Position numbers and translations under genes: made by a program. The notes beneath the pieces were generated by a model that was not told the origin of the DNA, made no database searches, and saw only the letters and a program-made list of their open reading frames with translations. From the IMG/VR virus record IMGVR_UViG_3300023115_001620, positions 1 through 64,000 of that record: a DNA stretch of 64,000 bases; one strand, 5' to 3'. Source of the stretch: a virus. Positions 3-49,082 of the stretch are shown here, one piece after another. Each line of letters begins with the position of its first letter. The stretch's first letter is position 1.

Positions 3-563
3 ATGCGTGATGGTCTAGACTTTGATCGTTTATGGAACAACGTAAACAACTATCTAGCAAAGACACACAACGGGCTAGTAACGTTTATTGTTACTTTTAA
101 TATGTTGAGCTTGCCAAGTATTAAACGCTTGCTAGAGGGCATATATGCGCTGCAAAAGGCCCATAACGTGCGTAAAGTACGCAGAGACGATGCTACAGGC
201 AAACTAACATACTATGGTAATCATCGTGTGTTTGTTGATACACCTGCACTGCATCATCCTGCTTGGCAAAGTCTAAAACTTGCACCACAAGAACATTGGC
301 ATTATGCAGAATCTGCACTTGAGTTTATGAAAGCTCATCCTGACGGACAACGAGAAACACGATGGACAGGATTCAAGCCACACCAAATTGCTAGATTTGA
401 ACGTTCAATAGAATTTATGAAGGAAGGGTTTGCTACAGAAAAAGAACGCATAGATGCACAACAAAACTTTGTAAGATTTTTTACAGAGTATGACAAACGT
501 CGTGGCATAAGTTTTGAAAATACATTTCCTGAATACAAAGGATTAAAAGAAAAATGGAAATAG
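3..563 (+). CDS. Twitch-type radical SAM protein, C-terminal part (5' cut by window edge)
   Basis: Reads open from the left edge, so the first ATG at position 3 is probably internal and the CxxxCxxC half of the gene lies outside the window. What remains matches the C-terminal part of the 'twitch' radical SAM proteins common in T4-like marine phages: a VTFIVTFN strand, the AWQSLKL segment, and the near-terminal FFTEYDKRRG motif followed by FxxTFPE. The role of this phage family is not established; peptide or cofactor modification is a guess from the fold. It overlaps the next gene by 10 bases, so it heads or continues a plus-strand operon. Confidence 0.7.
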   Translation: MRDGLDFDRLWNNVNNYLAKTHNGLVTFIVTFNMLSLPSIKRLLEGIYALQKAHNVRKVRRDDATGKLTYYGNHRVFVDTPALHHPAWQSLKLAPQEHWHYAESALEFMKAHPDGQRETRWTGFKPHQIARFERSIEFMKEGFATEKERIDAQQNFVRFFTEYDKRRGISFENTFPEYKGLKEKWK

Positions 564-1816
564 ACAGACGAATTCATCCGCAGGAACTTGGACTGTTTAG
601 TAATGTATGTTTGGGAGATATTTGGTTCCCTCAACAGATTACTCCACAAATGGAAGGCTGGACTAGTGCATGGAAAGATTTATCAAAAACATTTTTTAAA
701 AAAGTAAAAACTCCTTACGCTGTATATTTTGGAGTGGGTTCTATATCTTGGTTAGAGTCTGAATATGCTTTAATGAATCCTAAAAATATCAGAGAATGTA
801 ATAAAAAAGGACTTAAGATATACTTATGGGAGCCATTGTCAACTTATAACATGCTAGACGAAGATGACAAGGAGGGCATATACACGTCTTGGTCCGACAC
901 AGACCTAGGAAACATTAGAGCATATGAACTTGATAGTATACAATACTATGCACAAATAAATGGCTTGACAAATGTGCAAGTGTATAGTCCTAGCTATAAT
1001 AGTAAATTATTTTTTCAAGATATATATCCTGAATTGCAAATAGATTGCACTCCTGTAGGATGGATTTATCCTGCCACTATTAATGTCCAAGAACAAGAAG
1101 GATATATGGATGCAGATAAGATTATAAAAAAGTTTTGGTGCGGCAACTGGCGTTATGCAAGTCATAGACATTGTGTTGCTAGTTACCTTGTACAAAAAAC
1201 CGACAGTTATAATTTAAGTTGGTTGTATGAAAGTAATGCAGAAATATTAGAACAAAATTCTACATTTAATCTGCCCAATAAAGATGATCTATATCGAGGC
1301 GCTGCAATCTTAGATACTATGGCACCTCTTAGTATGGATATAGACGTTGATAAAAAATTGAATAAAAACGAATATATAGACATACATATAGATACAAATC
1401 CTAAAAATGCATATGCAGAATGTTTTTGTGCTATTGTGAATGAAACACGTTACGCAGAGCCTACAGGTCTCTTGACAGAAAAGATAATGAATGCTATGCT
1501 TAATTATAGGCCTGTCATAATGGTAGGCCCGCCTGGTAATTTAGAATATATGCGAGCATGGGGATTTATGACATTCGATGAATGGTTCGACGAAAGTTAT
1601 GACTTAGAAAAGGATCATAGTAAACGTATGCAAAAGATATTTAGTTTAATAGACTGGATAAATTCAAAAAGCATAGATGACTTAAAAGAAATGTACATAG
1701 ATATGAATCACGTTCTATTACATAATAAAACATGGATAGAAGAACTACAAGAGCGTTTACTAGAAAAACCTATTACTAAAAATGAAATATTTAAGAGGAT
1801 ACGCTATGCTAATTAA
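554..1816 (+). CDS. Glycosyltransferase-like protein (FWCxNWRY / SEK-type family), copy 1
   Basis: 420 residues. A middle FWCGNWRY motif is followed by a C-terminal block NETRYAEP..LLTEK....RPVIMVGPPGNLEYMR..GF.TFDEWFDESYD. The E-x(n)-TEK and VGPPG arrangement resembles the donor-site signature of GT10-like (fucosyltransferase) GT-B enzymes, but the exact family is not certain. A clear paralogue lies on the other strand (20214-21389) and a more distant one at 2399-3352. It probably transfers a sugar to a phage or host surface glycan; substrate unknown. The start overlaps the preceding gene and is close to an AAAGGA-type site; the 3' end overlaps the acyltransferase start. Confidence 0.55.
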   Translation: MEIDRRIHPQELGLFSNVCLGDIWFPQQITPQMEGWTSAWKDLSKTFFKKVKTPYAVYFGVGSISWLESEYALMNPKNIRECNKKGLKIYLWEPLSTYNMLDEDDKEGIYTSWSDTDLGNIRAYELDSIQYYAQINGLTNVQVYSPSYNSKLFFQDIYPELQIDCTPVGWIYPATINVQEQEGYMDADKIIKKFWCGNWRYASHRHCVASYLVQKTDSYNLSWLYESNAEILEQNSTFNLPNKDDLYRGAAILDTMAPLSMDIDVDKKLNKNEYIDIHIDTNPKNAYAECFCAIVNETRYAEPTGLLTEKIMNAMLNYRPVIMVGPPGNLEYMRAWGFMTFDEWFDESYDLEKDHSKRMQKIFSLIDWINSKSIDDLKEMYIDMNHVLLHNKTWIEELQERLLEKPITKNEIFKRIRYAN

Positions 1817-2402
1817 AAATGCCAAACCACTAAAAATAATTGGATATGACCAAAGCATGCTTACACAAGATAGTATGTTTTACGGAAAAAACTTTGTCAA
1901 CGAAGATTGTAGCATCATGAGCCCACAAGAGTTCAAGCAATTACAAAGCAAAGATGATTTCCAGTATTTTATTGGATTTGCTCTAGATTTACAGGAGCGC
2001 AGCGAAACAATAGATTTACTTGATGAATACGATTGCGACTGTGTTACTTATATCCACGAAACTGCTGTTATACACGAAGGTGCTGTAATTGGAAAGGGTT
2101 CTTGTGTTGCCAACTTTAGTACAGTAATGCAAGGTGCAGTTGTAGGGAAACACTGTTTTATTGAAACATACTGCCTAGTTAGTCACGGTGTGAATCTTGG
2201 AGATAATTGTATGCTGCATAGCGGAACTATGATTGCAGGAAAAACTAATGTCGGTAGGAATTGTATGTTTAACTTTAGGAGTGGTGCAATAAACAAAATA
2301 GACATATGTGACAATGTTATTGTTGGAGCATTTTCTAACCTAACTAAAAGTGTTGACAAGGCAGGTGTGTATGTAGGTTCTCCTGCTAGAAAATTAAAAT
2401 GA
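1806..2402 (+). CDS. Hexapeptide-repeat (left-handed beta-helix) acyltransferase, NeuD/PglD-like
   Basis: 198 residues from the ATG at 1806, preferred over the in-frame ATG at 1782 because AAGAGG lies 7 bases upstream of 1806. The N-terminal third resembles the nucleotide-sugar-binding part of PglD/NeuD proteins. From about residue 75 there are imperfect hexapeptide repeats ([LIV]-G-x-x-[CSA]) such as AVIGKGSCVANFSTV and GDNCMLHSGTMIAGKTN, ending in the VYVGSPARKLK tail typical of sugar O/N-acetyltransferases. It would acetylate a sugar or nucleotide sugar using acetyl-CoA. It lies between two glycosyltransferase-like genes and ends in an ATGA overlap with the next start. Confidence 0.8.
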   Translation: MLIKNAKPLKIIGYDQSMLTQDSMFYGKNFVNEDCSIMSPQEFKQLQSKDDFQYFIGFALDLQERSETIDLLDEYDCDCVTYIHETAVIHEGAVIGKGSCVANFSTVMQGAVVGKHCFIETYCLVSHGVNLGDNCMLHSGTMIAGKTNVGRNCMFNFRSGAINKIDICDNVIVGAFSNLTKSVDKAGVYVGSPARKLK

Positions 2403-3352
2403 AGTATCTGAATATATGGAAAGATATCCATGTTTATATTCGTGAACACGGTATTGATAACTTTTTATCTAATTTACAAAATAACAAAGAAGAAACAATT
2501 TTAATGTGTGCAGAAGAGGCAAGTTTACATGCTGTCTCGAATGTAATAAAAAAATACAAATTAGGTCATGTCCATATGGTAAATGGTGGATACGATATTA
2601 ATTATTACAATAACGTATTTGCAGGACAAGACATTTCATATTCTATATGGCCCTTTTACTTTTTGTATGAAACTTTTTATCACAACAACTTTCATAATCT
2701 AAATTGTGACATAGAATGTTTGTTTTTGAATATGAATTATAGGCCTAGGTTGCATAGAAAAAAACTTATTGATAGGTTGGAATCTGCATGCATACTAGAA
2801 GAAAATTATTTTACATGGCATAATCCAGGATATAAAAAAACATTCCAACCAGACTTTGATGAAATAGATTACTATTGGAAATTTTGGAAACCTAGTACTG
2901 TGACCTTAGAATCGCAAAATTGGGATCAATATTCTCCTCCAATAGAAATGTATAAAAGTGCTATAAATCTAGTTACCGAATCGTTTTTACATTGTGGATT
3001 TATAACTGAAAAAACCTGGAATTCTATCATTTGCAAAAGACCATTTATTATACTAGGTGCTCCGGGTATACATAAACATTTACATAATTTAGGTTTTGAA
3101 TTTAGTGATAAAATAAATTATGACTTTGATAGTGTTGATGATACTGATACTAGAATTAATCTAATTGTACAAGAATTGGAAAGATTAAGCAGTTTAAATG
3201 TAAAAAATCTTTATGAAAGTACGATAAGCCTTAACGAACATAACTATAATAAAGCTATTGATATTATAAAAACTGAAGAACAATCTGTTTATGTAAAACA
3301 TCATTATAGTGAAATAATAAATAGAGCAAGGACAAAAGCACATGAGCTTTGA
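2399..3352 (+). CDS. Glycosyltransferase-like protein, divergent member of the same family
   Basis: 317 residues, very AT-rich and translationally coupled to the acyltransferase by ATGA. The C-terminal half carries VTESFLHCGFITEKTWNSI followed by RPFIILGAPGIHKHLHNLGF, the same E-x(n)-TEK-W ... PF-[IV]-[IL]-x-x-P-x arrangement as the proteins at 554-1816 and 20214-21389. The FWCxNWRY block of those two is not present. This motif resembles the donor-binding side of GT10-like enzymes; target sugar unknown. Context (acyltransferase before, aminotransferase after) points to assembly of a decorated glycan. Confidence 0.5.
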   Translation: MKYLNIWKDIHVYIREHGIDNFLSNLQNNKEETILMCAEEASLHAVSNVIKKYKLGHVHMVNGGYDINYYNNVFAGQDISYSIWPFYFLYETFYHNNFHNLNCDIECLFLNMNYRPRLHRKKLIDRLESACILEENYFTWHNPGYKKTFQPDFDEIDYYWKFWKPSTVTLESQNWDQYSPPIEMYKSAINLVTESFLHCGFITEKTWNSIICKRPFIILGAPGIHKHLHNLGFEFSDKINYDFDSVDDTDTRINLIVQELERLSSLNVKNLYESTISLNEHNYNKAIDIIKTEEQSVYVKHHYSEIINRARTKAHEL

Positions 3353-3938
3353 TGCAGTAGAACAATTTGAAAAAGAAATTGCAAGTTTCTACGGTGCACC
3401 GTATGCAGTAGCAACAGATAGTTGTACCCATGCAATTGAATTATGTTTGAGATATAAAAAAGTAAAACATACTGCATGTCCAAAACATACCTATCTTAGT
3501 GTACCAATGACTATGGAAAAATTAGGATTGCGTTGGAAATTACATGAAGCAAGGTGGAAAGAATACTATCATCTTGCTAATACAAACATAATAGATGCAG
3601 CAGTATATTGGAAAAAGCAAGGATATATACCTAATACCTTAATGTGCCTAAGTTTCCAATTCAAAAAACATTTGAGTTTAGGCAGAGGCGGAATGATATT
3701 ATGCGACAGTGCATTAGATCGTGCAGAGCTTATAAAAATGAGTTATGACGGTAGACATCGTAATGCCCCTTGGACAGAACAAGAAGTATACCAAATGGGT
3801 TACCATTATTATATGACGCCGGAAACAGCAGAATTAGGATTGGCAAAACTTAACGATGCTGCCTCGGCATACGCAAAAAATTGGTCGTGGTCTGATTATC
3901 CTGATCTGTCTAAGATGCCTCTTTTTAAGAATAAATAA
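3342..3938 (+). CDS. Half-size DegT/DnrJ/EryC1-type PLP aminotransferase
   Basis: 198 residues against about 370-400 for the family. The conserved PLP core is present: AVATDSCTHAIELCL near residues 22-36 (phosphate-binding part), NIIDAA at 82-87 (the Asp that binds the pyridine nitrogen), and SFQFKKHLSLGRGGMIL at 104-120, where Lys109 aligns with the aldimine lysine and GRGG with the family GEGG. Most of the C-terminal small domain is missing. It starts 11 bases inside the previous gene and there is no nearby second half, so this looks like a compact form and not a split gene. A role in amino-sugar formation is likely from family knowledge; activity as a mini-enzyme is unproven. Confidence 0.75.
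   Translation: MSFDAVEQFEKEIASFYGAPYAVATDSCTHAIELCLRYKKVKHTACPKHTYLSVPMTMEKLGLRWKLHEARWKEYYHLANTNIIDAAVYWKKQGYIPNTLMCLSFQFKKHLSLGRGGMILCDSALDRAELIKMSYDGRHRNAPWTEQEVYQMGYHYYMTPETAELGLAKLNDAASAYAKNWSWSDYPDLSKMPLFKNK
3930..3937 (+). promoter_or_regulatory. T4-late-like promoter motif AATAAATA
   Basis: AATAAATA matches the NATAAATA core of T4-type late promoters and lies 27 bases before the dehydrogenase start, overlapping the stop codon of the aminotransferase gene. It is followed by a small palindromic element (AATATACGCATATT) and then AGGAG. Confidence 0.5.
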
Positions 3939-3963
3939 TATACGCATATTATAGGAGTAACAA

Positions 3964-5193
3964 ATGAATATCGGTTTTATCGGTGTAGGTAAATTAGGCA
4001 TGCCTTGTGCAGAAGCAATTGCACAAAAAGGACATGATGTAACCGGATACGATGTAGTAAAAAGAAAAAGTAATTATATTACAATGTATCCTACAATTCA
4101 AGGTGCTGTTCAAGGCAGAGATATAGTGTTTATTGCAGTTCCTACTCCGCATGATCCTGATTATGATGGTCGAGCTCCTACAGCACATTTAGAACCCAAG
4201 GATTTTTCATATGATATTGTAAATGAAGTTATAGATGAAGCAAATAAACATATGACCAAAGATCAATTGCTTGTATTAATTTCAACTGTACTACCTGGCA
4301 CAGTACGTAGAGAATTTGTACCAAGAATTACCAATCCGAGATTTGTGTATAATCCATATCTTATTGCAATGGGCAGTGTAGCATGGGACATGATTAATCC
4401 AGAAATGGTCATGATTGGCACAGAAGACGGCGCAGAGAATGGTGATGCCAAAGAACTTGTGGACTTTTACAAAACTATAATGGAAAATGATCCACGGTAT
4501 GTTGTAGGCACATGGGACGAGTGTGAATGTATTAAGGTGTTTTACAATACCTTTATTAGTACAAAGATTGGTCTTGTAAACATGATACAAGACGTTGCAG
4601 AATCTCAAGGTAATATTAACGTAGATGTAGTGACTAAAGCACTAGCAGATAGCACAATGCGTATTATGGGTCCACAGTACATGACAGCTGGTATGGGCGA
4701 CGGAGGAGGCTGTCACCCTAGAGACAATATTGCACTAAGATATATGGCTCAAGAACTAGATTTAGGTTATGATATTTTTGATGCAGTAATGAATGCAAGA
4801 GAAATTCAAGCAGAAAATCTTGCTCTTAAATTAGTAGATTTAGCAAATGAATACAACTATCCTATCTATATACATGGCAAAGCATATAAACCTGGCGTAG
4901 AATATTGTGACGGTAGTTACAGTTTATTAGTAGGGCATTACTGTGAAAAGCACGGATTTGCACCTGTATATATTGATCCTTTAACAGGCGATAATAACGA
5001 ACCTAATGAACCGTGTATAATGTTAATGGCACATAGTCCTAGCACAACTTACAAATACATGCAAGAAGAAGGTGATAGTACGGATAAAGTATATTGCAAT
5101 ATACCGTCAGATAGTGTTATAGTTGATCCTTGGCGTAAATACCAAAATCCTAATTGCGAAGTAATTCATTACGGTAACACAAGAAATGTATGA
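3964..5193 (+). CDS. ugd: UDP-glucose/GDP-mannose 6-dehydrogenase family protein
   Basis: 409 residues. The N-terminal Rossmann fold starts with GFIGVGKLGMPCAE (GxGxxG). The middle domain has the family helix KVFYNTFISTKIGLVNM, and the catalytic cysteine lies in GGGCHPRD, corresponding to GG.CFPKD of UDP-glucose dehydrogenases. The C-terminal nucleotide-binding domain has HGKAYKPGVEYCDGS, the usual G.AFK....D.R.S region. The family oxidises the C6 alcohol of a UDP- or GDP-hexose to a uronic acid with two NAD+. GGAG at 3953 gives a good start; the gene overlaps the next by 8 bases. The particular sugar cannot be read from sequence. Confidence 0.85.
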   Translation: MNIGFIGVGKLGMPCAEAIAQKGHDVTGYDVVKRKSNYITMYPTIQGAVQGRDIVFIAVPTPHDPDYDGRAPTAHLEPKDFSYDIVNEVIDEANKHMTKDQLLVLISTVLPGTVRREFVPRITNPRFVYNPYLIAMGSVAWDMINPEMVMIGTEDGAENGDAKELVDFYKTIMENDPRYVVGTWDECECIKVFYNTFISTKIGLVNMIQDVAESQGNINVDVVTKALADSTMRIMGPQYMTAGMGDGGGCHPRDNIALRYMAQELDLGYDIFDAVMNAREIQAENLALKLVDLANEYNYPIYIHGKAYKPGVEYCDGSYSLLVGHYCEKHGFAPVYIDPLTGDNNEPNEPCIMLMAHSPSTTYKYMQEEGDSTDKVYCNIPSDSVIVDPWRKYQNPNCEVIHYGNTRNV

Positions 5194-5863
5194 TATTGTT
5201 TTTATATCATATCAAGAACCAAACGCAGATGAAAATTTTACAAAATTAAAACAACGGTTTCCTATGGTAAAACGTGTGCACGGTGTAAAGGGAATACATC
5301 AAGCACATATTGCCGCTGCCAAAAAATGTTTTACTAAGATGTTTTGGGTAGTTGATGCTGATGCACTTATTGCAGATGATTTTAATTTTGATTATGAGGT
5401 AGACGATTACAATTTAGAAACTGTGCATGTGTGGCGCAGTCAAAATCCTATTAATGATCTTGTGTATGGTTATGGCGGTGTAAAACTGTTGCCACGTAAA
5501 CTTACAATTAATATGGATATTAGCAAGCCTGACATGACTACTAGTATTAGTTCAAAATTTAAAGCAGTAAAAGAATTATCAAATATTACTGCATTTAATA
5601 CAGATCCTTTTAACACTTGGAAAAGTGCGTTTAGAGAGTGTGCAAAACTTAGTAGTAAAATAATTGATAGGCAGAAAAATGAAGAAACAGAACAAAGACT
5701 TGAAACGTGGTGTACAATTGGAGAACACAGACCTTATGGTTCCTATGCTCTTGCCGGTGCTAGGGCTGGCCGTGAGTTTGGCATTTCTAATAGTAACAGT
5801 TTACAACTTATAAATGACTTTGATTGGTTAAAGGAGCAGTTTAATGATAAAAACAGATCCTGA
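5186..5863 (+). CDS. GT-A-like glycosyltransferase
   Basis: 225 residues. DIVFISYQEPNADENF at the N-terminus, then RVHGVKGIHQAHIAAAKKC and WVVDADALI give the layout of a small GT-A fold, where DADA serves as the metal-binding DxD motif. The C-terminal part (YGSYALAGARAGREFG) is conserved among marine T4-like phage proteins of this type. Predicted role: transfer of a sugar from a nucleotide-sugar donor, consistent with the dehydrogenase immediately upstream (8-base overlap). Acceptor unknown. Confidence 0.6.
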   Translation: MYDIVFISYQEPNADENFTKLKQRFPMVKRVHGVKGIHQAHIAAAKKCFTKMFWVVDADALIADDFNFDYEVDDYNLETVHVWRSQNPINDLVYGYGGVKLLPRKLTINMDISKPDMTTSISSKFKAVKELSNITAFNTDPFNTWKSAFRECAKLSSKIIDRQKNEETEQRLETWCTIGEHRPYGSYALAGARAGREFGISNSNSLQLINDFDWLKEQFNDKNRS

Positions 5864-6302
5864 TCTAATTACAAATTTAGAGACTAATGCTCTTTGGTTA
5901 GTAATACATCCTGTCACTACTTTCGATAATGAAATACATGAAATATATCCCTGGGTACGTGCAGAAACAATTAATTTTTCAAAAAGAATATTACACTATT
6001 TAAAAAATGTCAAATATAAAGCTATTTCAGCACCTACCGAAGCAATAAGGTTTTTCCATAATTATCCTAATTTGGTTTCCTCTAGTCAATTGCAAGATTA
6101 CATGAAAAAACATAAACTTTCTAATATAGTTTATTGCGGATTTCACTATGGCTTTTGTATACTAAATGATGAAAAAGTTGGTATTAACAAAATGGAAAAA
6201 TACTATACTTGCTTTGTTAAAAAAGATATTTGCCAACTTGCTTGGGAAGCAGATTGGGAAGAATGCGATAAAAAAACAAGCAAAGTTGCACAAATAATTT
6301 AA
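5844..6302 (+). CDS. Uncharacterised protein, possibly isochorismatase-fold
   Basis: 152 residues, starting after AAAGGAG inside the end of the previous gene. ALWLVIHP near the N-terminus and KLSNIVYCGFHYGFCIL near residues 115-131 recall the first strand and the cysteine-bearing strand of isochorismatase/nicotinamidase-like hydrolases. The usual Asp and Lys of that catalytic triad cannot be placed, so this is only a fold guess. It sits between the glycosyltransferase and a methyltransferase in the same operon. Confidence 0.35.
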   Translation: MIKTDPDLITNLETNALWLVIHPVTTFDNEIHEIYPWVRAETINFSKRILHYLKNVKYKAISAPTEAIRFFHNYPNLVSSSQLQDYMKKHKLSNIVYCGFHYGFCILNDEKVGINKMEKYYTCFVKKDICQLAWEADWEECDKKTSKVAQII

Positions 6303-6310
6303 GGATTAAT

Positions 6311-6958
6311 ATGTCAATACATAACAGTGAGTTTTTTGATAACTTTGGACAAGTACTAAACAAATTTCCTGATTTATATCTTACAGATCTTTTTTCAAAA
6401 GGACAGATGGAATCTAAACGTTGGTTGGTTAATGAACTTGAAAAAATTAACCAACCATTAGGAACTGTGTTTTTATGTGCTGGTTGGTATGGCAGTTTGG
6501 CAACATTTCTATTTGAAAGTAAATTAGAAATAGAAAAGATTAGAAGTTTTGATATAGACAAGCATTGTGCAGCAATCGCAGAAACATTTAATCGCACAAA
6601 AACAATGGATAATTGGAAGTTTAAGGCTAGTACACTAGATATTTCAAAATTGGATTATCCTACGACTTACAGTACATTTAGATCAGATGGATCAAGTTTA
6701 GAACTTACAGAAATGCCAAATACAATTATTAATACTAGTTGTGAACATATTGACAACTTTGATGTATGGTTTAACAATATACCTGCAGGAACATTTGTTA
6801 TATTACAGTCAAATGATTACTTTGATTTACCAGAACACGTAAATTGCTGTATAGATTTAGAAGACTTTTCTAAAATGACACCTATGCATAAAGTATATTA
6901 TCAAGGGCAAATTGCACTATCTAAGTACAATAGATATATGCGTATAGGAATAAAATAG
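6311..6958 (+). CDS. Class I SAM-dependent methyltransferase-like protein
   Basis: 215 residues, with AAGGA five bases before the ATG. TVFLCAGWYGSLATFLF corresponds to motif I of the Rossmann methyltransferase fold in a diverged form, followed by KIRSFDIDKHCAAIAETFN (acidic residue after the second strand) and NTIINTSCEHIDNFDVWF. This arrangement recurs in T4-like marine phages. Substrate unknown; position suggests sugar or small-molecule methylation. A 64-base gap with a late-promoter motif separates it from the P450 gene. Confidence 0.6.
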   Translation: MSIHNSEFFDNFGQVLNKFPDLYLTDLFSKGQMESKRWLVNELEKINQPLGTVFLCAGWYGSLATFLFESKLEIEKIRSFDIDKHCAAIAETFNRTKTMDNWKFKASTLDISKLDYPTTYSTFRSDGSSLELTEMPNTIINTSCEHIDNFDVWFNNIPAGTFVILQSNDYFDLPEHVNCCIDLEDFSKMTPMHKVYYQGQIALSKYNRYMRIGIK

Positions 6959-6988
6959 TCACAAGCAGCTATACACGTTTCAAACCTC

Positions 6989-6996
6989 AATAAATA
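6989..6996 (+). promoter_or_regulatory. T4-late-like promoter motif AATAAATA before the P450 operon
   Basis: AATAAATA followed directly by CGTATATT, 27 bases upstream of the P450 ATG. It is the only clear promoter-like element between the sugar genes and the 7023-14050 cluster, which suggests that cluster is transcribed late. Confidence 0.5.
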
Positions 6997-7022
6997 CGTA
7001 TATTATTTACATAAGAGATAAA

Positions 7023-8270
7023 ATGCGAAAAAATGATTTTGAGATAGTAAATCCAGAATTTCTTTATAAAATGGACGAACACGCAGAATGCTTGTTTGCT
7101 ACAGAGCCTCGCGGTTTTTATTGGCACCCAGTATATAAACATTGGATTATATTCTCAATGGATAAACTTAAAGAAGCTTCTAAAATGAATGAGGATTTTA
7201 GTTTAGCAACCACGTCTCCTGCTCCTTTTGATCCAACACCCTTAGGCGGAATATGGAGAGCAGGATATGCACTTACTCTCCGAGAAGGCCCACATCATCA
7301 TTTAGCAAAGAAGCATAGTCTAGACTGGCTCAAGCGCAGATCTACCGACTTTACTAAAATCTTTACTAACAACTTAAATAATGCCCTTGATAGTATACAA
7401 AAGGGAAAATCTTTTAAAGCATACGATATAATTGGTAAAACAGTTACACATACACAGATACAAAGTATAGAATTTCCTTGGCATATACTAGATGTTAATG
7501 AGGAGTTTGTCAAGGATGCTTATTTTCAGTGGATGAAACCTGGCGGTGTTTTTAGCAATTTTAATCCTGATTTTGATTACGATAAACCTGTTGCAGAAAC
7601 AACTGAATTTTACAGCATGTTTGCACAAATAGTAGATAAAACAATTGACTATTATCATATTGATCGACCTGATGCAGACACAATGATTAACATGACAAAA
7701 AATCTTAGTGACAAGCAATCGGAATATAATGACAACCCTAAAAAGATGGCTTATATGCTTATACAATCATTATGGACTGTTGTAATACCTACATTTTCAT
7801 TAAGTTTATATCAAAATATCTTGATGAACTTTTGTAAATATCCAGAAATTGCTGCAAGAGTCAAAAACGATAGATCTCTTGTTCCTTCTTTTGCTCGTGA
7901 AAGTTTACGCTTAGGACCTATGAAAGGCGGCATAAGAGATATTACACGCACCTTAGATTATCATGGATACAAATTTGATAAAGGCGGCAGAATACTCCTT
8001 TATACATACGGAGCAAATAGAGACCCAAAATATTTTAAAGATCCACTTGAATTTAAATTAGAAAGAGATAATGAACCATTGCCTGTTACTCTAGCATACG
8101 GTCCGCATCATTGCACTGGTGATTTTCTTGTAAAACATTTTCTAGAAATTATCACTAACGCTGTATTAGATAGGTTTAGTGAATTTGAAATTACAAATCA
8201 ACCAGAACTGCTACCCGCTATGTTTGGTTCTACAACTGTGTATAAAGACCTTGAGTTAAAATTTTCATGA
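7023..8270 (+). CDS. Cytochrome P450
   Basis: 415 residues, the usual size of a soluble bacterial P450. Seen in order: LREGPHHHLAKK at 86-97 (helix C region, like D-x-P-x-H-xxx-[RK]); ESLR at 293-296 (the ExxR pair); ANRDPKYFKDPLEF at 331-344 (meander); and AYGPHHCTG at 358-366, with Cys364 as heme thiolate ligand and G360/G366 conserved. The I-helix, where AGx[DE]T is normal, reads VIPTFS at 254-259, so the acid of the acid-alcohol pair is absent. No membrane anchor. The start follows AGAG; the 3' end overlaps the next gene by ATGA. It probably hydroxylates or couples a small substrate with external electrons. A ferredoxin is encoded at 62929-63276. Confidence 0.92.
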   Translation: MRKNDFEIVNPEFLYKMDEHAECLFATEPRGFYWHPVYKHWIIFSMDKLKEASKMNEDFSLATTSPAPFDPTPLGGIWRAGYALTLREGPHHHLAKKHSLDWLKRRSTDFTKIFTNNLNNALDSIQKGKSFKAYDIIGKTVTHTQIQSIEFPWHILDVNEEFVKDAYFQWMKPGGVFSNFNPDFDYDKPVAETTEFYSMFAQIVDKTIDYYHIDRPDADTMINMTKNLSDKQSEYNDNPKKMAYMLIQSLWTVVIPTFSLSLYQNILMNFCKYPEIAARVKNDRSLVPSFARESLRLGPMKGGIRDITRTLDYHGYKFDKGGRILLYTYGANRDPKYFKDPLEFKLERDNEPLPVTLAYGPHHCTGDFLVKHFLEIITNAVLDRFSEFEITNQPELLPAMFGSTTVYKDLELKFS

Positions 8271-8782
8271 TAAAAACAAAACAATTATATAATGCAACCC
8301 ATGAGTTAATTACGTTTATACAGGAGTGTGATAAATTAGGATATAAAAATAATAACACATTAGAAGCAATGAAGTTTGATTGGTGTTTAGCAAATGGTGG
8401 ATCTTGGTATGCTACATTTGTTGATGATAAAATTGTTGGTATAAGTGGCTTGCACAAATTTGCTGATGGTTATCGTGCACTTTTTAGAGGCTGCCAGCTG
8501 CACCCTATTCCAGGAGGATTATCTAAAAATCATATGAATTGCTGGATGTTTTATTATCATTTACCTTTAGTTATAGATCGTGTAGACGGACCAATCTATA
8601 TTACAACCAACACAGATAACGATGCAAGTGGAAAAATGTTAAAATTAAATAAATTATACTCTATATTAGAAAAATCAGGCATAGTAGATTTTGTTGCTGA
8701 AGAAGAAGTGTTTTACACTAATCAAAATATATGGAAATTAAATAATAAAATTTATTTAGACGCAAGGAGTAAAGTAAAATGA
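8267..8782 (+). CDS. GNAT-like acyltransferase family protein
   Basis: 171 residues. WYATFVDDKIVGISGLHKFADGYRALFRG resembles the central GNAT strands (a protein reporting 'does this change what it sees', then the acyl-CoA binding turn), though the Q/RxxGxG/A loop is not clear. It is a known type in marine T4-like phages. Coupled on both sides by ATGA overlaps to the P450 and halogenase genes, which implies they work together. Could be an N-acyltransferase acting on the cluster's product; assignment is weak. Confidence 0.4.
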   Translation: MIKTKQLYNATHELITFIQECDKLGYKNNNTLEAMKFDWCLANGGSWYATFVDDKIVGISGLHKFADGYRALFRGCQLHPIPGGLSKNHMNCWMFYYHLPLVIDRVDGPIYITTNTDNDASGKMLKLNKLYSILEKSGIVDFVAEEEVFYTNQNIWKLNNKIYLDARSKVK

Positions 8783-9906
8783 AGATTGCAATTTTAGGCG
8801 CTGGCAGTGCCGGCATTCTTACTACTGGTTGTATCCTTAAAGATTTTAAAAACAGAAATATTGAATGTGAAGTTACCCATATTTTTGATCCTAATATTCC
8901 TATACTAGGAGTAGGAGAAAGCACAACATCAGAAGTGACATTTGCAATAGGACAAGCATTTAATTTTATTTTTGCTACTGAATCAGACGAAATAAAAAGC
9001 ACTACTAAGTATGGTACACACTATATTGACTGGAGAGAAAAAGACATAATTTTTCCTTTTCAATCAGGTTATCATGCTGTTCATTTTGATGCTAGAGACT
9101 TTGCAAAAATGGGACTAGAAAGATTAAAAAGAATATATCCAAATTATAAATTATTACAGGAAAGCTGGCAAGAGTCTAGTGCAGAAAATTATGATTATGT
9201 AATTGATTGTCGCGGACGTCCCCAAGATTTCTCAGATTATAAGGAATGTAATTTAATACTTAATAGTGCTTTAGTTTACGATGATCCTGAACCTAGTGAT
9301 TTTGGATTTACTAGACATGTAGCGCACAAATACGGATGGATGTTTGTAATTCCTTTAAAGCACAGAACATCACACGGTTTCTTATATAATAAAGATTTCT
9401 GCAATAGGCAGGAAGCAGAAGCAGAACTCATACGTATTACAAACGCAACAGAAAAAGATATTGAAAATTTTAGAACATTTACATTGAAGCCTTACTACTG
9501 TAAAAAGACAGTGAATGGACGTATGTTGAAAAACGGTAACAGAGCTGTATTTTTTGAGCCTATGAGTGCTAATTCTCTTTATATGGCTGTCAAAAATACA
9601 CAAATTTTATCTCAATATATGAGGGGAGAAATTAGTCAAGACGAAGCTAACAAATTGTGCATCCTAAACTATCGTGCAGTTGAAGATTTAATTAATCTAA
9701 TTTACCACGGTGGTTCTATATACGACAATGATTTTTGGCAGTGGACAAAAAAACGTGCTTCAAAAAATCTGCAAGAAACTGACGTCTTAAAAAGATATGT
9801 AAAAGATCAAGAAGATGAAATGTTTAAAACTATTACAGAAAGATTTATGGGGCACCATGTTTTACGATATGTAGACAAAGAATTTGAGTTTAATTATTTT
9901 GAGTAA
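8779..9906 (+). CDS. Flavin-dependent halogenase (tryptophan halogenase family)
   Basis: 375 residues, shorter than the usual 500 or so. FAD-binding GAGSAG at 7-12; GVGEST at 44-49, the family hallmark; TTKYGTHYIDW around 75-85, in which Lys77 aligns with the catalytic lysine that carries HOCl in PrnA/RebH; GWMFVIPL at 186-193, the WxWxIP motif with the second Trp replaced by Phe; and FFEPMSANSLYMA, matching the FVEPLEST helix. The family uses FADH2, O2 and halide to halogenate aromatic substrates, often tethered ones. Strong AAGGAG site and ATGA coupling to the gene before. Loss of the second Trp leaves open a monooxygenase-like role. Confidence 0.85.
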   Translation: MKIAILGAGSAGILTTGCILKDFKNRNIECEVTHIFDPNIPILGVGESTTSEVTFAIGQAFNFIFATESDEIKSTTKYGTHYIDWREKDIIFPFQSGYHAVHFDARDFAKMGLERLKRIYPNYKLLQESWQESSAENYDYVIDCRGRPQDFSDYKECNLILNSALVYDDPEPSDFGFTRHVAHKYGWMFVIPLKHRTSHGFLYNKDFCNRQEAEAELIRITNATEKDIENFRTFTLKPYYCKKTVNGRMLKNGNRAVFFEPMSANSLYMAVKNTQILSQYMRGEISQDEANKLCILNYRAVEDLINLIYHGGSIYDNDFWQWTKKRASKNLQETDVLKRYVKDQEDEMFKTITERFMGHHVLRYVDKEFEFNYFE

Positions 9907-9909
9907 ATT

Positions 9910-10674
9910 ATGTCTTTAAACACTTGGTATGATAATTTTGACGAACAATACTTCCGCGATATAATACACACAGGAGTAACAATACTTACGTCTGGCTCTT
10001 CGGGAGAACCTAAAGAAATTTACCAACCTCCAAGTAAAATCAATGCAGATGCAAAATTTGCAATAGATATTCAAGGTATAAATGTTACAAGTAGTGTTTA
10101 TACATGTTTGAACCCTGTAAGAGCAGGCGGCTTATTTGCGCAAACTATCCCTGCATTACTTGTAGGAGCAGATGTTGATCTAGATAAGTTTAATCCTTAC
10201 GAGTATGTTAGAGTTGCCAATAAATACACACACACGCATCTGACACCTAAACAAGCAAAAGCTGTGATGTTAACAAAGGGTTTTAGAGATCTCGATCTAA
10301 CGGGTAAGACTTTTTTGATAGGATCTGAACCTGTCACTTATGATATTATAGAGGCATTTGTACACAGAGGAGCAAAAGTAATTACAATTTGGGGAATGAC
10401 CGAAATAGGAGTCAATGCTATTATGGAGGTTTTTAATAGTATTGAAGATGTAAATAGTATGAAAGAAATCACGCCTAACAATTCGACAATTCTTGGCAGT
10501 ATTTTTAATTGTAATTGGCGTATCATTGATTCGTGTTTGTGGGTATGCGGAGATATATGTGTATACGACGGATGGTTTAATACTAATGATACTGTGATTG
10601 AAAAGGATGGATATTTGTTTTATACTGGTAGAAGTAACGCTATAGTAGATTTTGCTAATCCAAAAAAAGGTTAA
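9910..10674 (+). CDS. Truncated AMP-ligase (acyl-CoA synthetase / adenylation core)
   Basis: 254 residues, about half the size of ANL-superfamily enzymes. TSGSSGEPK at 27-35 is the AMP-binding P-loop, WGMTEIG matches YGxTE, and GYLFYTGRSNAIVDF is the GR hinge region. The usual 150-170 residues before the P-loop are missing and the protein ends just past the hinge, so the C-terminal domain with the catalytic lysine is absent. It resembles the central core of MenE-like (O-succinylbenzoate-CoA ligase) proteins. It may activate a carboxylate as adenylate without thioester transfer, or need a partner. Sits 3 bases after the halogenase and 1 base before the radical SAM gene. Confidence 0.8.
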   Translation: MSLNTWYDNFDEQYFRDIIHTGVTILTSGSSGEPKEIYQPPSKINADAKFAIDIQGINVTSSVYTCLNPVRAGGLFAQTIPALLVGADVDLDKFNPYEYVRVANKYTHTHLTPKQAKAVMLTKGFRDLDLTGKTFLIGSEPVTYDIIEAFVHRGAKVITIWGMTEIGVNAIMEVFNSIEDVNSMKEITPNNSTILGSIFNCNWRIIDSCLWVCGDICVYDGWFNTNDTVIEKDGYLFYTGRSNAIVDFANPKKG

Positions 10675-10675
10675 T

Positions 10676-12697
10676 ATGAAAATAAAAAATACATATGATA
10701 TTATTATAATGACAGAAGGAAGTGATCCTGTTTTTAATGTTGCAAGAGCATTAGGTGGGTACAAAATTGCTTCTGCACTGCGTAACGAAGGGTATAGTGT
10801 ATTTGTATTAAGTAACTTTTCTCACTTTATACAAAAAGGTAATATTAATCAAATCCTAGATAAACTGATAGGTGACAATACTTTGTGGGTAGGATTTAGT
10901 TCTACACTGTTTATGAGATCACAAAAAGATGTTTATAGAAAACGTCATACAAGAGATACAGCAAAACAGAATATGTTATGGCATTGGCCTACTAATGACA
11001 TTGATGTAAAATCAATGACAGATTACATACGTTCTAAAGGAATAAAAACTGTCTATGGTGGTATGATGGATGCACATCGTGTGCCATTAGTTAGTGATTG
11101 TATAGACTATTATGTAGTAGGAATGGGCGAACATGCAGCTTTACACATAACAGATCATATAAAAAATGGTACTATACTTAATTATAATCCTGCTTACGGA
11201 TTGAAGCCAAAAGTAATTGATTACGATCAAAGAGGAGAGCTTTTTGACTTTAGGAATGCGCACATAAATTATGTGCCAGAAGATTTTTGGAATCCAGAAG
11301 ATGGCATGGGTATAGAGTTTGGTCGAGGATGTATTTTTAGATGTAAGTTTTGTGCATATCCATTGATTGGTAAGAAGAAAGGAGACTTGTCCTTTTTAAG
11401 AGAAAAAGAACGGATAAAAGATGAACTAAAACAAAACTATGAATTATATGGCACTACTAAGTATGTAATTATAGATGATACATTCAACGAGCAAACAATA
11501 AAATTACAAGCAATAGCAGATGCTATAGATGAAATAGATTTGCCAGAACAGTTACAATTTGCAGCTTTTATTAGAATTGACTTAATAGCAAGATACCCTG
11601 AACAACTAGAACTACTTAAGAAAATAAATGTACGTGCTTGGTTTTTAGGTGTAGAAAGTTTAAATTATGAGTCAGCAAAAGCAATTGGAAAAGGATGTCC
11701 TAAAGAAGTTATATTTGAAACAATCAAAAATGCAAAAGAAAAATTTAACGGATCATTAAGTGTATACGGCAGTTTTATTGCAGGACTTCCGCATGATAGT
11801 AGAGAAACTATGGATAAATGGACTGCCGAACTTGTAGAGAACAAACATTTATTTGATGCATTTTCGTTTAGTCCTCTAGAACTAGGAACTGCATCTCTCC
11901 TTTCTAAAAATCCAGAACTATATGGATACACAATTGATAAATCTGCAGACACTGCAAACAAGTGGACAAACGAGCATTGGTCCGCAGATGAAACAGTGGA
12001 ATATGTAAAGCATTTGCAAAGCACAATTTTAGAGGACATCAGAGTGTCTACTTTCTTTTTGATGTTTTATCAATGTTTAGGTTTTACTTTTGATGAGCTT
12101 AGAGTAATGACATTCACAGAACTTTTTGCAAATAGTAAGGTTAGGAGAAAAGCTAGGCAGTATTTAGAAAAAAGTTATTATTCTAAAGTTGAAAACTTTT
12201 TAGGTGTAGAACCTACCCAACCTAATATCAAATACATGAAAAATCTATCAATAGAGCAAAGCATTAAAGACAGTTTGAAAGAAGAATTTTTACAAGTAAA
12301 AAATTTAGTAGATGTTCCTGAATTAGAAGTTCTCAAGGCAGTAGAGGATATTACAGAATGTAAAACTGCTAATGCTATTGTACAAAATGTTAAAAAAATT
12401 ATTGGCTGTGAAATTTATCCTAGCTTTTTTATTCAGGCTGCAGATAGTTATTTAAAACCTAGAACTGAATCGGGTGCTACTGGTATACAAATAGTGCTTA
12501 ACTTAGATGCTCCTATCACCTGGGACGAAGCAGTTGATGTATACTATGACTGTGCTGTATTAGATCTTAGCAACATGCATAGTATACAAACTGATAAAGA
12601 AGACAGGATTTTCTTACATATCACAATTTTAGACAAACCATATGAAGATGTGTTGCAAATTCTTAGTGAAAATGAAAGTGAGGTTTTTAATGTTTGA
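10676..12697 (+). CDS. B12-binding-type radical SAM enzyme
   Basis: 673 residues from the ATG at 10676, which follows AAAAGG and comes one base after the previous stop. The N-terminal ~190 residues look like a cobalamin-binding Rossmann domain (DIIIMTEGSDPVFNVARALGG; later VYGGMMDAHR and DYYVVGMGE). The radical SAM cluster motif CIFRCKFC has Cys219, Cys223 and Cys226, followed by YVIIDDTFNEQ and WFLGVESLNYESAKAIGKG, standard barrel motifs. About 230 C-terminal residues are unassigned. Such enzymes do methylations, ring contractions or other radical steps; the reaction here is unknown. Confidence 0.85.
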   Translation: MKIKNTYDIIIMTEGSDPVFNVARALGGYKIASALRNEGYSVFVLSNFSHFIQKGNINQILDKLIGDNTLWVGFSSTLFMRSQKDVYRKRHTRDTAKQNMLWHWPTNDIDVKSMTDYIRSKGIKTVYGGMMDAHRVPLVSDCIDYYVVGMGEHAALHITDHIKNGTILNYNPAYGLKPKVIDYDQRGELFDFRNAHINYVPEDFWNPEDGMGIEFGRGCIFRCKFCAYPLIGKKKGDLSFLREKERIKDELKQNYELYGTTKYVIIDDTFNEQTIKLQAIADAIDEIDLPEQLQFAAFIRIDLIARYPEQLELLKKINVRAWFLGVESLNYESAKAIGKGCPKEVIFETIKNAKEKFNGSLSVYGSFIAGLPHDSRETMDKWTAELVENKHLFDAFSFSPLELGTASLLSKNPELYGYTIDKSADTANKWTNEHWSADETVEYVKHLQSTILEDIRVSTFFLMFYQCLGFTFDELRVMTFTELFANSKVRRKARQYLEKSYYSKVENFLGVEPTQPNIKYMKNLSIEQSIKDSLKEEFLQVKNLVDVPELEVLKAVEDITECKTANAIVQNVKKIIGCEIYPSFFIQAADSYLKPRTESGATGIQIVLNLDAPITWDEAVDVYYDCAVLDLSNMHSIQTDKEDRIFLHITILDKPYEDVLQILSENESEVFNV

Positions 12698-12914
12698 ACA
12701 ATTATTTTACATATACTATTTTCCTGTAACTTTTTTTGCAATATATACAATTGAAAAAGAAGTAAAATGTAATACCTTTGTTGGTAGTGTTTGGAGTAGA
12801 GTTACCTTACTTGAGCGTTTAGTTGCATGTATGATACCTTTGTATAGAGAATTTATACTAATAATCTTGTATATCCAAAGCCGGAAACCTAGTTGGTTTC
12901 CTAAGCCTTTGTAA
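12690..12914 (+). CDS. Small membrane protein
   Basis: 74 residues from the ATG at 12690, 8 bases inside the end of the radical SAM gene; GTGAGG upstream supports this over the in-frame ATG at 12642. Two hydrophobic segments are visible, FYIYYFPVTFFAIY near the N-terminus and LVACMIPLYREFILIILYI in the second half. No family recognised. Its place inside the P450-halogenase operon could mean a membrane tether or export role, which is inference only. Confidence 0.5.
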   Translation: MFEQLFYIYYFPVTFFAIYTIEKEVKCNTFVGSVWSRVTLLERLVACMIPLYREFILIILYIQSRKPSWFPKPL

Positions 12915-12923
12915 GGAAACGCA

Positions 12924-13454
12924 ATGTCATATTATGAAAACGTCGACCTACCATCCTTTTTAAATTTGTATACCCAGCTACAACAGCTAGATGTTGAATG
13001 GACTGGAAATCAAATTTGTATGAATGCTCCGCAAAATTTAACTTATGATACTACATTTGGAGTTGGCAGATTATTAAAAGAGTACAAGTTTGGAGATAAG
13101 ATAGGACAAAATGAAGTAATTAAATCTTTAAAGGACGGAAATTGGCATTTGTGCGATATATTTGTAGATACACAATTTGAAGAATTATTTAATGCTGTTA
13201 AGTCTAGGTATAAAATAGGGAGGATACGTCTTATGAAATCGGCTCCTAATACTTGTTTAGCATGGCATCAAGATCCTGTACCTAGACTACACTATCCTAT
13301 CAAAACGCAGGAAGGCTGCTTAATGGTAATAGAAGACGAAGTAAGACACTTAGAACAAGATAAATGGTGTCTTACACGCACTACACACGCTCATACAGCA
13401 CTCAACGGCAGCAAAGAGGATCGTATACATATTGTTGCTGATATATTTCCATGA
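12924..13454 (+). CDS. Aspartyl/asparaginyl beta-hydroxylase-like (2OG-Fe(II)) protein
   Basis: 176 residues; AAGGAAAC precedes the ATG. RLMKSAPNTCLAWHQDPVPR supplies an HxD pair, and THAHTALNGSKEDRIHIVADI gives the distal His and the Arg that binds 2-oxoglutarate, the spacing seen in the Asp/Asn hydroxylase cupin family. The family hydroxylates side chains or small molecules using Fe(II), O2 and 2-oxoglutarate. It ends in an ATGA overlap with a methyltransferase, so it belongs to the same run of tailoring enzymes. Confidence 0.7.
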   Translation: MSYYENVDLPSFLNLYTQLQQLDVEWTGNQICMNAPQNLTYDTTFGVGRLLKEYKFGDKIGQNEVIKSLKDGNWHLCDIFVDTQFEELFNAVKSRYKIGRIRLMKSAPNTCLAWHQDPVPRLHYPIKTQEGCLMVIEDEVRHLEQDKWCLTRTTHAHTALNGSKEDRIHIVADIFP

Positions 13455-14050
13455 TATTTAGAAAAACTAATACATTTTCAATTTTTGATCAATTTGTAGA
13501 TGACTACAATGGCAAAACAATATTAGACTTCGGAGGTAACAGAGGTAATCTTATCGCTTCTAGCGAGGGTAAAATAAGTCAGGAAAACTATACTTGTTTA
13601 GATATAAGTAAACAAGCTCTTAGTGTTTTGCACAAGGATTTTCCTCTGGTCAAAAGTATTCATTGGAATAAATACCATTCTTACTATAATCCTACAGGAA
13701 ATATAAAAGAACCATTTCCTAAATTACAATTTTATGATATCGTATTTGCAAATAGTGTGTTTACACATCTAACTCTAAAAGAAACACTATATTGCTTAGA
13801 GCAAATTACACAATATACTAATAGAATAGCTTTTACTTATATAGATCCTAGTAACAATCAATTTTTAAAAAAATTCAATGAAAAGTATTGTAAATTGTCA
13901 TTTGATAATACCGATGAATCATATACAAACGACGAAAATGGAATATTTTGGAGTGCATTTAAGACAGAATATTTACTACATTTATTACCGCATACTAATA
14001 TTAAACATGGCAGTACTAATTGGTTTAACTTTATCGACATCACAATTTAG
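13451..14050 (+). CDS. Class I SAM-dependent methyltransferase
   Basis: 199 residues. TILDFGGNRGNLI is motif I (E/DxGxGxG-like), YTCLDISKQAL supplies the acidic residue after strand 2, and YDIVFANSVFTHLTLKETL is the strand-4 region with the usual 'FTH' turn. Small-molecule O- or N-methyltransferases often look like this. Coupled to the hydroxylase gene by ATGA and last gene of the tight 7023-14050 run. Substrate unknown. Confidence 0.8.
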   Translation: MIFRKTNTFSIFDQFVDDYNGKTILDFGGNRGNLIASSEGKISQENYTCLDISKQALSVLHKDFPLVKSIHWNKYHSYYNPTGNIKEPFPKLQFYDIVFANSVFTHLTLKETLYCLEQITQYTNRIAFTYIDPSNNQFLKKFNEKYCKLSFDNTDESYTNDENGIFWSAFKTEYLLHLLPHTNIKHGSTNWFNFIDITI

Positions 14051-14070: not shown

Positions 14071-14078
14071 AATAAATA
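14071..14078 (+). promoter_or_regulatory. T4-late-like promoter motif AATAAATA
   Basis: AATAAATA lies 24 bases before the ATG at 14102, and a strong AAGGAG ribosome site follows. Probably gives the two small membrane proteins their own late transcript. Confidence 0.45.
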
Positions 14079-14101: not shown

Positions 14102-14320
14102 ATGACAACACTTACAGCACATCTTCATAAAGAAGGAGCAGGCGGCAATTATTTCGGACATTTAAAAATAGGGCTTAATATGATCATATGGTCTGCCGCA
14201 GTATTTGTTACAAGCACAATTCACGGAATTTTTCCGTTTTTATTAAACGATTCATCTATGTATTGTGCAAAAAAACTAGCAAGTTTAGTAGAGCAAACAT
14301 TTAGTCATCACGAGGCGTAA
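14102..14320 (+). CDS. Small membrane protein, HG-FPFL (DUF6356-like) family, copy 1
   Basis: 72 residues behind a strong AAGGAG site. A hydrophobic segment IGLNMIIWSAAVFVTSTIHGIFPFLL is preceded by HLHKEGAGGNYFGHLK. The same plan (H..-GYFKH, hydrophobic stretch, H-x-FFPFLFP) recurs in the next gene, so these are tandem paralogues. It resembles the small DUF6356 proteins of bacteria and phages. Function unknown; membrane location is likely. Confidence 0.55.
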   Translation: MTTLTAHLHKEGAGGNYFGHLKIGLNMIIWSAAVFVTSTIHGIFPFLLNDSSMYCAKKLASLVEQTFSHHEA

Positions 14321-14321
14321 A

Positions 14322-14594
14322 ATGAAGTTTGGAGATTTAGGCAAGTATGGATGGTTAGTGAACACTGAACATCTTAGAGAAGTCCGTAGTGGCTATTTTA
14401 AGCATATGTGGTATGCGATTAAAATTTCCTCTTGGGGATTACTTAATCCTATTACAGGTTATATTCATGCCTTTTTTCCGTTTTTATTTCCAAATACGCC
14501 GCATAGGATAGCAATGCGTACTGTTGAGATGGCCGAGGAAATGATAGCAGAATTAAAAGCTACAATTGAAGCAGAAGACGCTGCAAAGAAGTAG
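14322..14594 (+). CDS. Small membrane protein, HG-FPFL (DUF6356-like) family, copy 2
   Basis: 90 residues, one base after copy 1. SGYFKHMWYAIKISSWGLLNP and YIHAFFPFLFPNTPHRIA parallel the neighbour, with a longer charged C-terminal helix (MAEEMIAELKATIEAEDAAKK). Tandem arrangement and shared motifs suggest duplication. Last gene before the convergent terminator. Function unknown. Confidence 0.55.
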   Translation: MKFGDLGKYGWLVNTEHLREVRSGYFKHMWYAIKISSWGLLNPITGYIHAFFPFLFPNTPHRIAMRTVEMAEEMIAELKATIEAEDAAKK

Positions 14595-47512: not shown

Positions 47513-47724
47513 TTTTTCTTACGTCCTCTAAAAGTATGTCCTGTCATATAAGGTTTTGAAAACCATAATTCAAACCATTCTTTGTCACCTGGTTTAATAT
47601 TTTGTTCTTTTTCTTTTTTCTTTAATTCAGTTGCAGTATGGCTCATATCTTCAAGAGTATACTCTGTGTAACCTTTGTATTCGTTTACACCTGCTAGTTT
47701 TTTAATATACTCTAGTTCATCCAC
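47509..47724 (-). CDS. Conserved small phage protein
   Basis: 71 residues. YIKKLAGVNEYKGYTEYTLE at the N-terminus and GDKEWFELWFSKPYMTGHTF near the end, with basic RGRKKK terminus. The combination is familiar from marine myoviruses. Overlaps the nucleotidyltransferase gene by 13 bases. Function unknown. Confidence 0.5.
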   Translation of the reverse strand: MDELEYIKKLAGVNEYKGYTEYTLEDMSHTATELKKKEKEQNIKPGDKEWFELWFSKPYMTGHTFRGRKKK

Positions 47725-49082
47725 GATAGATCACCTTGTTCTAAAGATTCTGCATACTTAGCAGCAAACTTCTCGCCGTGCTTTTCTATCCATTTTTTAA
47801 GTACAACTGCACCTAAGATAAGTGTTACAGCCATTGCAATAGTAAACTTGTTGTCGATAAGCATTTGTGTTGCTTCTTCGCCAATTTTATCTGTAACCCA
47901 TTCCCATCCTTCACTTATGGCAATTGCTGCTGCGCTACCACCTATGATATATTTTGCAAATTTCTTTAACAACCATTTTAATACAGGCCACGCACCTCTT
48001 ACAGCAATCCAACGAAGTATCCACATAACTGCTGCACCCACTGCTGGTGCAATTTCATCTAGTTGTTGTTCTTCTTTGACGTATTTTTCTTTTTTCTTTT
48101 CTTCGCCTTTGGTAAGTTCACGTTCTATTGTAGATAATGCCTCTTGTATATCCTCTTTGGAAACAACAAATCGTTTTCCTTTAGATGTTATTTGTTTACC
48201 AGCAATATATTTTAATAAAGCAGAAAGGTTTTCAACACTATCCTCTCTGTTTACGTAATCTTGGATCTGATCTTTGATATATTTTACCAAAGCCTGTTTG
48301 TCTAAAACTAAATCTGCTTCTGCTGTTACTAATTCTTTTTTAGACTTCCATGCATCCTTGTCGCCTTTTGCAGCAGCTTTTCTTCTCGCTGCTATTCTAT
48401 CTCTGATGCTACTTGGTTCGTCGAATTTTTCTTTTTTCTTTTTAATTGTAGCTCTTTTAGCTCTACTTGGAATACCAAAAGCCATTATTTCTTCTACAGG
48501 CTCAGTAATACCCATGCCTTTGCGTACAGCATCAAACATAGTTTTGGCTAGTTTAGGATTTGGTACGCCTTTTGCAAATGCTTCTATGTCCCCTGAAGCT
48601 GCTGCTACACGCATTTTGCTTGCACTCATACCGCTTACATCATCTGCATCTGGATCACGTTCTCCTGCACTTGCTACTTTGATTGAATTAAATTTAAACG
48701 GAACTTTTCCTGATTTGTCTGGTTGACCGTTGTATGTATTGAACAGTTTTTGGAAACCATCTACACGATCTGAACCTGCAATAAAAATTACATCAGTGTA
48801 ACCTAAACTTTGTAGCATTTCTAATGCTTGAACTGGTGTACGTACACTTTGATGTCCTATGTTTATTCCAGGAAAAAATTGTTTTGCGAACTTTAGTTTT
48901 GTTGGAAAGTCTAAAGGATCTGTTTTAGGTTTTTGGCTTTGAGATAAGAAAAGATAGTGGTCTCCTTCAAAAGACTCTATTGTACTAACTAACTTTGCAT
49001 GACCTACAGTGGGAGGATTCAGCCTACCAAAAGCTAGAACTGCTGTTTTTTTCGTTTCTTCAAACAGTTCCCGTAGTAGCAT
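47712..49082 (-). CDS. Nucleotidyltransferase-domain protein with membrane tail
   Basis: 456 residues. FGRLNPPTVGHAKLV (HxGH-like PTVGH) and VSGMSASKMRVAAASGD (the ISGT/S..R motif) identify an adenylyl-/cytidylyltransferase fold in residues 10-180. A charged middle follows. The C-terminus has hydrophobic stretches (VGAAVMWILRWIAVRGAWPV, IIGGSAAAIAISEG and TIAMAVTLILGAVVLKKWIE). The first residues MLLRELFEE parallel MRIRDLLED of the ParB-like protein. It may be virion-packaged; enzyme substrate unknown. Confidence 0.6.
   Translation of the reverse strand: MLLRELFEETKKTAVLAFGRLNPPTVGHAKLVSTIESFEGDHYLFLSQSQKPKTDPLDFPTKLKFAKQFFPGINIGHQSVRTPVQALEMLQSLGYTDVIFIAGSDRVDGFQKLFNTYNGQPDKSGKVPFKFNSIKVASAGERDPDADDVSGMSASKMRVAAASGDIEAFAKGVPNPKLAKTMFDAVRKGMGITEPVEEIMAFGIPSRAKRATIKKKKEKFDEPSSIRDRIAARRKAAAKGDKDAWKSKKELVTAEADLVLDKQALVKYIKDQIQDYVNREDSVENLSALLKYIAGKQITSKGKRFVVSKEDIQEALSTIERELTKGEEKKKEKYVKEEQQLDEIAPAVGAAVMWILRWIAVRGAWPVLKWLLKKFAKYIIGGSAAAIAISEGWEWVTDKIGEEATQMLIDNKFTIAMAVTLILGAVVLKKWIEKHGEKFAAKYAESLEQGDLSWMN

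Follow-up and report, generated by a model that had tools for sequence, protein, structure and literature searches.

The window analysed here comprises bases 1-64000 (64 kb) of the 91,022-base virus record IMGVR_UViG_3300023115_001620, whose T4-type DNA polymerase best matches those of Sinorhizobium phage Phosso (50%) and Agrobacterium phage Atu_ph07 (46%). An alphaproteobacterial host is possible for this phage. At positions 7023-14050, with a tail protein gene as neighbour, eight plus-strand open reading frames follow one another with ATGA overlaps or near-zero spacing and encode, in order, a cytochrome P450, a GNAT-fold protein, a short halogenase-family flavoprotein, a half-size AMP-ligase, a radical SAM protein, a small hydrophobic protein, a 2OG hydroxylase, and a methyltransferase (A to H; Table 1). 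The original prediction of eight consecutive plus-strand genes of tailoring type is borne out in coordinates, strand, spacing, and Pfam families, and its view of a phage-borne, probably also co-transcribed, set of natural-product-type tailoring enzymes is supported. The unit extends further, as two linked small DUF6356-like genes (I and J, 14102-14594) belong with the cluster, giving about ten genes in total. These clustered, apparently co-transcribed genes of biosynthetic type in a phage genome fit the description of a phage-encoded biosynthetic gene cluster. Elsewhere in the window, on the minus strand, a Nol-like carbamoyltransferase (55364-56884; PHROG 1e-168) and a cytidyltransferase-like protein (47712-49082) represent further surface-chemistry genes.

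Table 1. Genes, domains, and promoter-like motifs of the operon region, with positions in the window
Feature	Position	Strand	Evidence or remark
Late-promoter-like motif of T4 type, ATAAATA	6990-6996	+	26 nt before the first ATG
A, cytochrome P450	7023-8270	+	Pfam PF00067, 4e-11
B, GNAT-fold acyltransferase	8267-8782	+	AF2 model, pLDDT 87; Foldseek
C, short flavin-dependent (tryptophan) halogenase family protein	8779-9906	+	Pfam Trp_halogenase PF04820, 5e-31
D, minimal AMP-ligase (ANL) half-domain without C-terminal lid	9910-10674	+	Pfam AMP-binding, 1e-10
E core, radical SAM protein of B12-type families	10676-12205	+	Pfam Radical_SAM, 2e-15; CxxxCxxC at 219/223/226
E C-terminal domain, about 160 aa	12206-12697	+	Encoded by a gene of its own in five contigs
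F, small hydrophobic, probably membrane protein, 74 aa	12690-12914	+	Conserved in several lineages
G, 2OG-Fe(II) oxygenase, Asp/Arg hydroxylase family	12924-13454	+	Pfam Asp_Arg_Hydrox, 3e-10
H, class I SAM methyltransferase	13451-14050	+	Pfam Methyltransf_12, 2e-8
Second late-promoter-like motif	14072-14078	+	Upstream of gene I
I, small DUF6356-like membrane protein	14102-14320	+	4.8e-5, just under the curated cut-off
J, paralogue of I	14322-14594	+	In IMG/VR almost always only with this cluster

Sequence features of the encoded proteins

Alignments with related clusters on other IMG/VR contigs (designated by L numbers) reveal both conserved and unusual active-site features. In the P450 (A), the heme cysteine (Cys364) and the ExxR motif (293-296) are among the invariant residues. 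The I helix, read by eye from the alignment, carries the equally invariant sequence VVIPTF, in which the threonine is kept and a proline occupies the usual acid position. An acid-alcohol pair in the I helix is usual, yet not universal, among P450s, and its absence from A counts against a role in a tailoring pathway. The protein also weakly matches ApyO. For B, the top Foldseek matches of the AlphaFold model are GNAT acetyltransferases (best E 7e-6).

The third protein (C) contains a PF04820 domain with GxGxxG, and relatives of it occur in isolated T4-like phages. Because its catalytic lysine is invariant (Lys77, equivalent to PrnA K79) but the active-site glutamate is replaced by serine (EPMSANS) and WxWxIP reads GWMFVIP, with loss of the second tryptophan, its sequence makes halogenase, oxygenase, or weak activity all possible for this halogenase-family member. 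The gene is optional in the cluster, being absent from L021, L022, L029, and L032 (L021 and L022 are near-identical), and it has a history of its own: the P450 tree groups the window with L013 (94% identical), whereas the halogenase tree groups the window with L004 and L006 (support 0.70) and L013 with L009 (support 0.985), a conflict which indicates that the halogenase gene has been exchanged between variants. Such an optional, recombining gene would fit a peripheral decorating step. The original expectation of a halogenated product thus retains the catalytic lysine in its favour but is weakened by the two lost residues and by the four cluster contigs that lack the gene.

Assignment of D to the AMP-ligase family holds, with the correction that the predicted core covers no more of the large domain than its ATP-binding half, matching positions 168-357 of the AMP-binding profile. 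The sequence keeps the ATP-binding motifs A3, A5, A7, and A8 (TSGSSGEPK, GMTE, TND, and GR), and in all 11 aligned rows it stops at the A8 hinge, so that the C-terminal lid with the A10 lysine is absent. Since the lid of AMP-ligases bears the usual catalytic lysine, adenylation by D stays a predicted activity, which likewise counts against a tailoring pathway.

E combines the CxxxCxxC motif with similarity to models of B12/radical SAM families (PhpK, HpnJ, and, weakly, ApyD). No DxHxxG was seen in its sequence, and family membership suggests that it would bind cobalamin. The family is wider among viruses, with 336 relatives in an IMG/VR scan; among the 80 listed, those outside the cluster are about 30-36% identical. 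The C-terminal domain forms its own gene in L004, L006, L021, L022, and L029, and no counterpart was found in L020; an HxD/H pattern is present in eight of nine rows, and HxD is lost in the window. For a possible second 2OG domain at this end of E, hhalign and a PDB search gave no confirmation, and no profile match was found. A defence-system reading was set aside, PADLOC having yielded only a weak radical SAM match (PDC-M51A, 1e-11).

In G, the HxD...H triad is present and HxD...H...R is invariant; three contigs (L021, L022, and L029) encode G on the opposite strand, and none was found in L020. The methyltransferase (H) is present in all clusters whose contig extends that far.

Conservation, selection, and late-promoter motifs

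Scans of IMG/VR with the halogenase, P450, AMP-ligase, radical SAM protein, J, and a 100-aa protein that heads the operon in other lineages retrieved largely the same contigs. The P450 turned up on 20 contigs, on two of which the protein is identical to that of the window, and 19 contigs carry the AMP-ligase; contigs that break off within the cluster account for the differences, and on uncut contigs the two genes co-occur. About a dozen other diverged viral lineages preserve the order A-B-(C)-D-E-(G)-(F)-H-(I-J), with P450, GNAT, AMP-ligase, radical SAM, and methyltransferase genes present wherever the contig spans the locus. Chance is excluded by this recurrence. The same independent contigs rule out misassembly, which the original prediction had raised as a possible origin of the segment.

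Among the 50,697 phage records of INPHARED, no match was found for the P450, E, J, or the 100-aa head protein. Two pattern scans of GTDB genomes, which reach close relatives only, found no relatives of the P450 or of the radical SAM protein and, at that range, gave no sign of a bacterial origin.

Genes surrounding the cluster vary, with tail genes in L004, L018, L020, and L029 and replication genes, including UvsX, in L032. The sugar genes at 554-6958, once proposed to supply the scaffold, accompany the cluster only in its closest variant, L013 (checked for the neighbours at 554-6302), and that proposal is not upheld. A pathway that decorates tail fibres or the host surface with an unusual sugar, lipid, or glycan is suggested by glycosyltransferase-like and sugar-nucleotide genes near several loci and by the small membrane proteins that accompany the unit; however, the sugar genes of the window are shared with L013 alone, the glycosyltransferase neighbours vary, the unit of L032 lies among replication genes, and P450, AMP-ligase, and halogenase are atypical of glycan pathways, which together render this explanation improbable. 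As a separate observation, a FabF-like beta-ketoacyl synthase is encoded at most 1 kb after the cluster in L004 (16397-17605; Pfam 4e-41) and L006 (16486-17709). In L022 and L029, the P450 gene directly follows an extended array of genes of radical SAM, PP-loop, and SGNH-like types (66-10014), and the last radical SAM gene of the array overlaps its start.

Between the window and L013, dN/dS is 0.07 for the P450, 0.07 for the GNAT protein, 0.10 for the halogenase, 0.14 for the AMP-ligase, 0.08 for the E core, 0.14 for G, 0.22 for the methyltransferase, 0.08 for I, and 0.05 for J, while the C-terminal domain of E is relaxed (0.50). The operon is under purifying selection and its function is maintained; gene decay, the other doubt attached to the original prediction, is ruled out by values of 0.05-0.22, apart from that one domain.

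The motif ATAAATA is rarer in the window than expected by chance (14 found against 33 expected), and 12 of the 14 sites lie at most 80 bases upstream of a start. Either ATAAATA or TATAAAT, the latter being the T4 late-promoter query of Sullivan 2010 (PMC3037559), precedes the operon head in 10 of 10 lineages as against 1 of 68 internal starts (Fisher p=9e-12, an approximate value, as the rows have common ancestry), and also precedes gene I in seven of nine. L014, L018, L022, and L029 have no motif before the P450; there, an upstream gene runs into or up to it. The motif suggests that the operon would be expressed late in infection.

This timing bears on DNA hypermodification, or another modification of nucleic acids, as the purpose of the operon. 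QueC-like or other PP-loop genes stand alongside the clusters of L010, L013, L014, and L018, and base-modification pathways of phages include enzymes of the GNAT, radical SAM, and 2OG types; yet the motif is of the late rather than the early kind, no SGGxDS PP-loop motif was found in the 91-kb record, and P450 and AMP-ligase are not known from DNA-modification pathways. Such a role therefore appears very improbable.

A candidate tailoring pathway and its alternatives

The enzyme families of the operon act on activated acids, amino acids, or peptides. Our preferred reading, to which we assign about an even chance, is that the operon represents a phage tailoring pathway that is expressed late, is maintained by selection as one unit, and acts on an acid-type substrate. 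In the scheme that we infer, with substrate, order of steps, product, and localisation all conditional, transcription would proceed late from the T4-type promoter, D would activate a carboxylic, probably amino-acid-like, substrate, B would transfer an acyl group, the P450 and G would oxidise the substrate, E would add a methyl group or rearrange carbon, H would cap the molecule, and, in some lineages, C would halogenate or oxidise it. The three small membrane proteins (F, I, and J) may keep the pathway, or what it produces, at the envelope, and the host would supply cofactors and electron donors. Against this scheme, neither a carrier protein or synthase core nor an exporter or self-resistance gene could be recognised, and late expression with tail-gene neighbours suits virion modification equally well.

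The main rival holds that the enzymes modify a ribosomal peptide or a virion protein, in a RiPP-like or tail-protein maturation. It takes this place because distant relatives of C and E adjoin Cys-rich peptides and SPASM maturases in other phages (L056, L063, L066, and L075, where a Cys-rich 128-aa protein, a PapB/CcpM-like SPASM maturase, and a 2OG-like protein are found). The late promoter and the nearby tail genes are compatible with it, as is the apy RiPP pathway, which unites P450, B12-radical SAM, and methyltransferase (PMC10635010) and whose ApyO and ApyD are the weak matches noted above. The 100-aa protein with a conserved C-terminus (L008:7930-8232 and equivalents) also points in this direction: it heads the operon in about eight lineages, occurs only ever directly before this P450, and has the near-invariant end GWxI(S/T)F(S/T)PETADL. 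However, it is predicted to be well folded and ferredoxin-like (pLDDT 92) and is absent from the window, L013, L014, L018, L022, and L029; its predicted fold and patchy presence across lineages speak against a simple RiPP precursor, and a short precursor peptide does not accompany each maturation set, so far as the operons examined show; a tail protein would be another candidate substrate. No peptidase or leader-binding domain was recognised, and an AMP-ligase would be unusual for a RiPP-like pathway. A free small molecule, to which we give about even odds as the substrate, is favoured over a peptide or virion protein, a possibility that seems rather less likely than not.

Most metabolic genes of phages occur singly and enhance the metabolism of the host. 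The conserved operon suggests that several related T4-like marine phages make or chemically modify a molecule, and if the tailoring reading is true, lytic viruses would run specialised chemistry of their own during virion assembly. Two of its enzymes also lend themselves to testing, namely the adenylating enzyme of half the usual size and the P450 whose oxygen-activation site is unusual. Only tentatively can one go further and propose a virus-specific late pathway without cellular counterpart, in which a minimal adenylating enzyme that has no lid and an unusual P450 would help to make a new molecule that is oxidised, acylated, methylated, and sometimes halogenated. That the pathway is wholly new is no more than a possibility, given that cellular relatives were sought by close-match scans only.

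Relation to described systems

Phage tryptophan halogenases are known from cyanophages, Pelagibacter phage HTVC008M, and VirX1 (PDB 6qgm), and C belongs to the same family (PHROG 2928, 1e-62). C is shorter than these proteins and lacks the active-site glutamate, and their genes have replication or structural genes as neighbours, with neither a P450 nor an AMP-ligase nor this radical SAM protein. Biosynthetic clusters in phages, reviewed in PMC10452541 with reference to Dragos 2021, are described as rare and as mostly bacteriocin clusters of temperate phages. These share with the present operon the clustering of several specialised-metabolism-type genes in a phage, whereas here the genes form a late operon of T4-like phages and encode tailoring enzymes only. 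Phage halogenases and phage biosynthetic clusters are thus already known, and the present combination is not described there. The literature searched contained no phage paper combining these enzyme types, in line with the earlier statement that no described T4-like phage operon with such a set was known.

Relative to the apy pathway, the operon lacks an MNIO and any recognised precursor of equivalent role, shows weak family matches only, and adds GNAT, AMP-ligase, halogenase-like, and 2OG enzymes. A likeness in logic, pairing a flavoprotein with a radical SAM enzyme, exists with the maturation of quinohemoprotein amine dehydrogenase (QhpD/QhpG). The phage relatives on L056-type contigs match QhpG and LodB models, whereas C of the window matches QhpG at E 0.02 only and keeps the halogenase lysine.

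These L056-type contigs (L056:3804-9604, L063, L066, L068, L075, L064, and L069) carry a phage cluster in its own right, in which a Cys-rich protein of 128-134 aa with a tail-protein-like start, a CACACW end, and no INPHARED match accompanies a PapB/CcpM-like SPASM radical SAM protein, a halogenase-like flavoprotein, a B12-type radical SAM protein, and 2OG-like proteins. This cluster looks like a system for peptide or virion-protein maturation.
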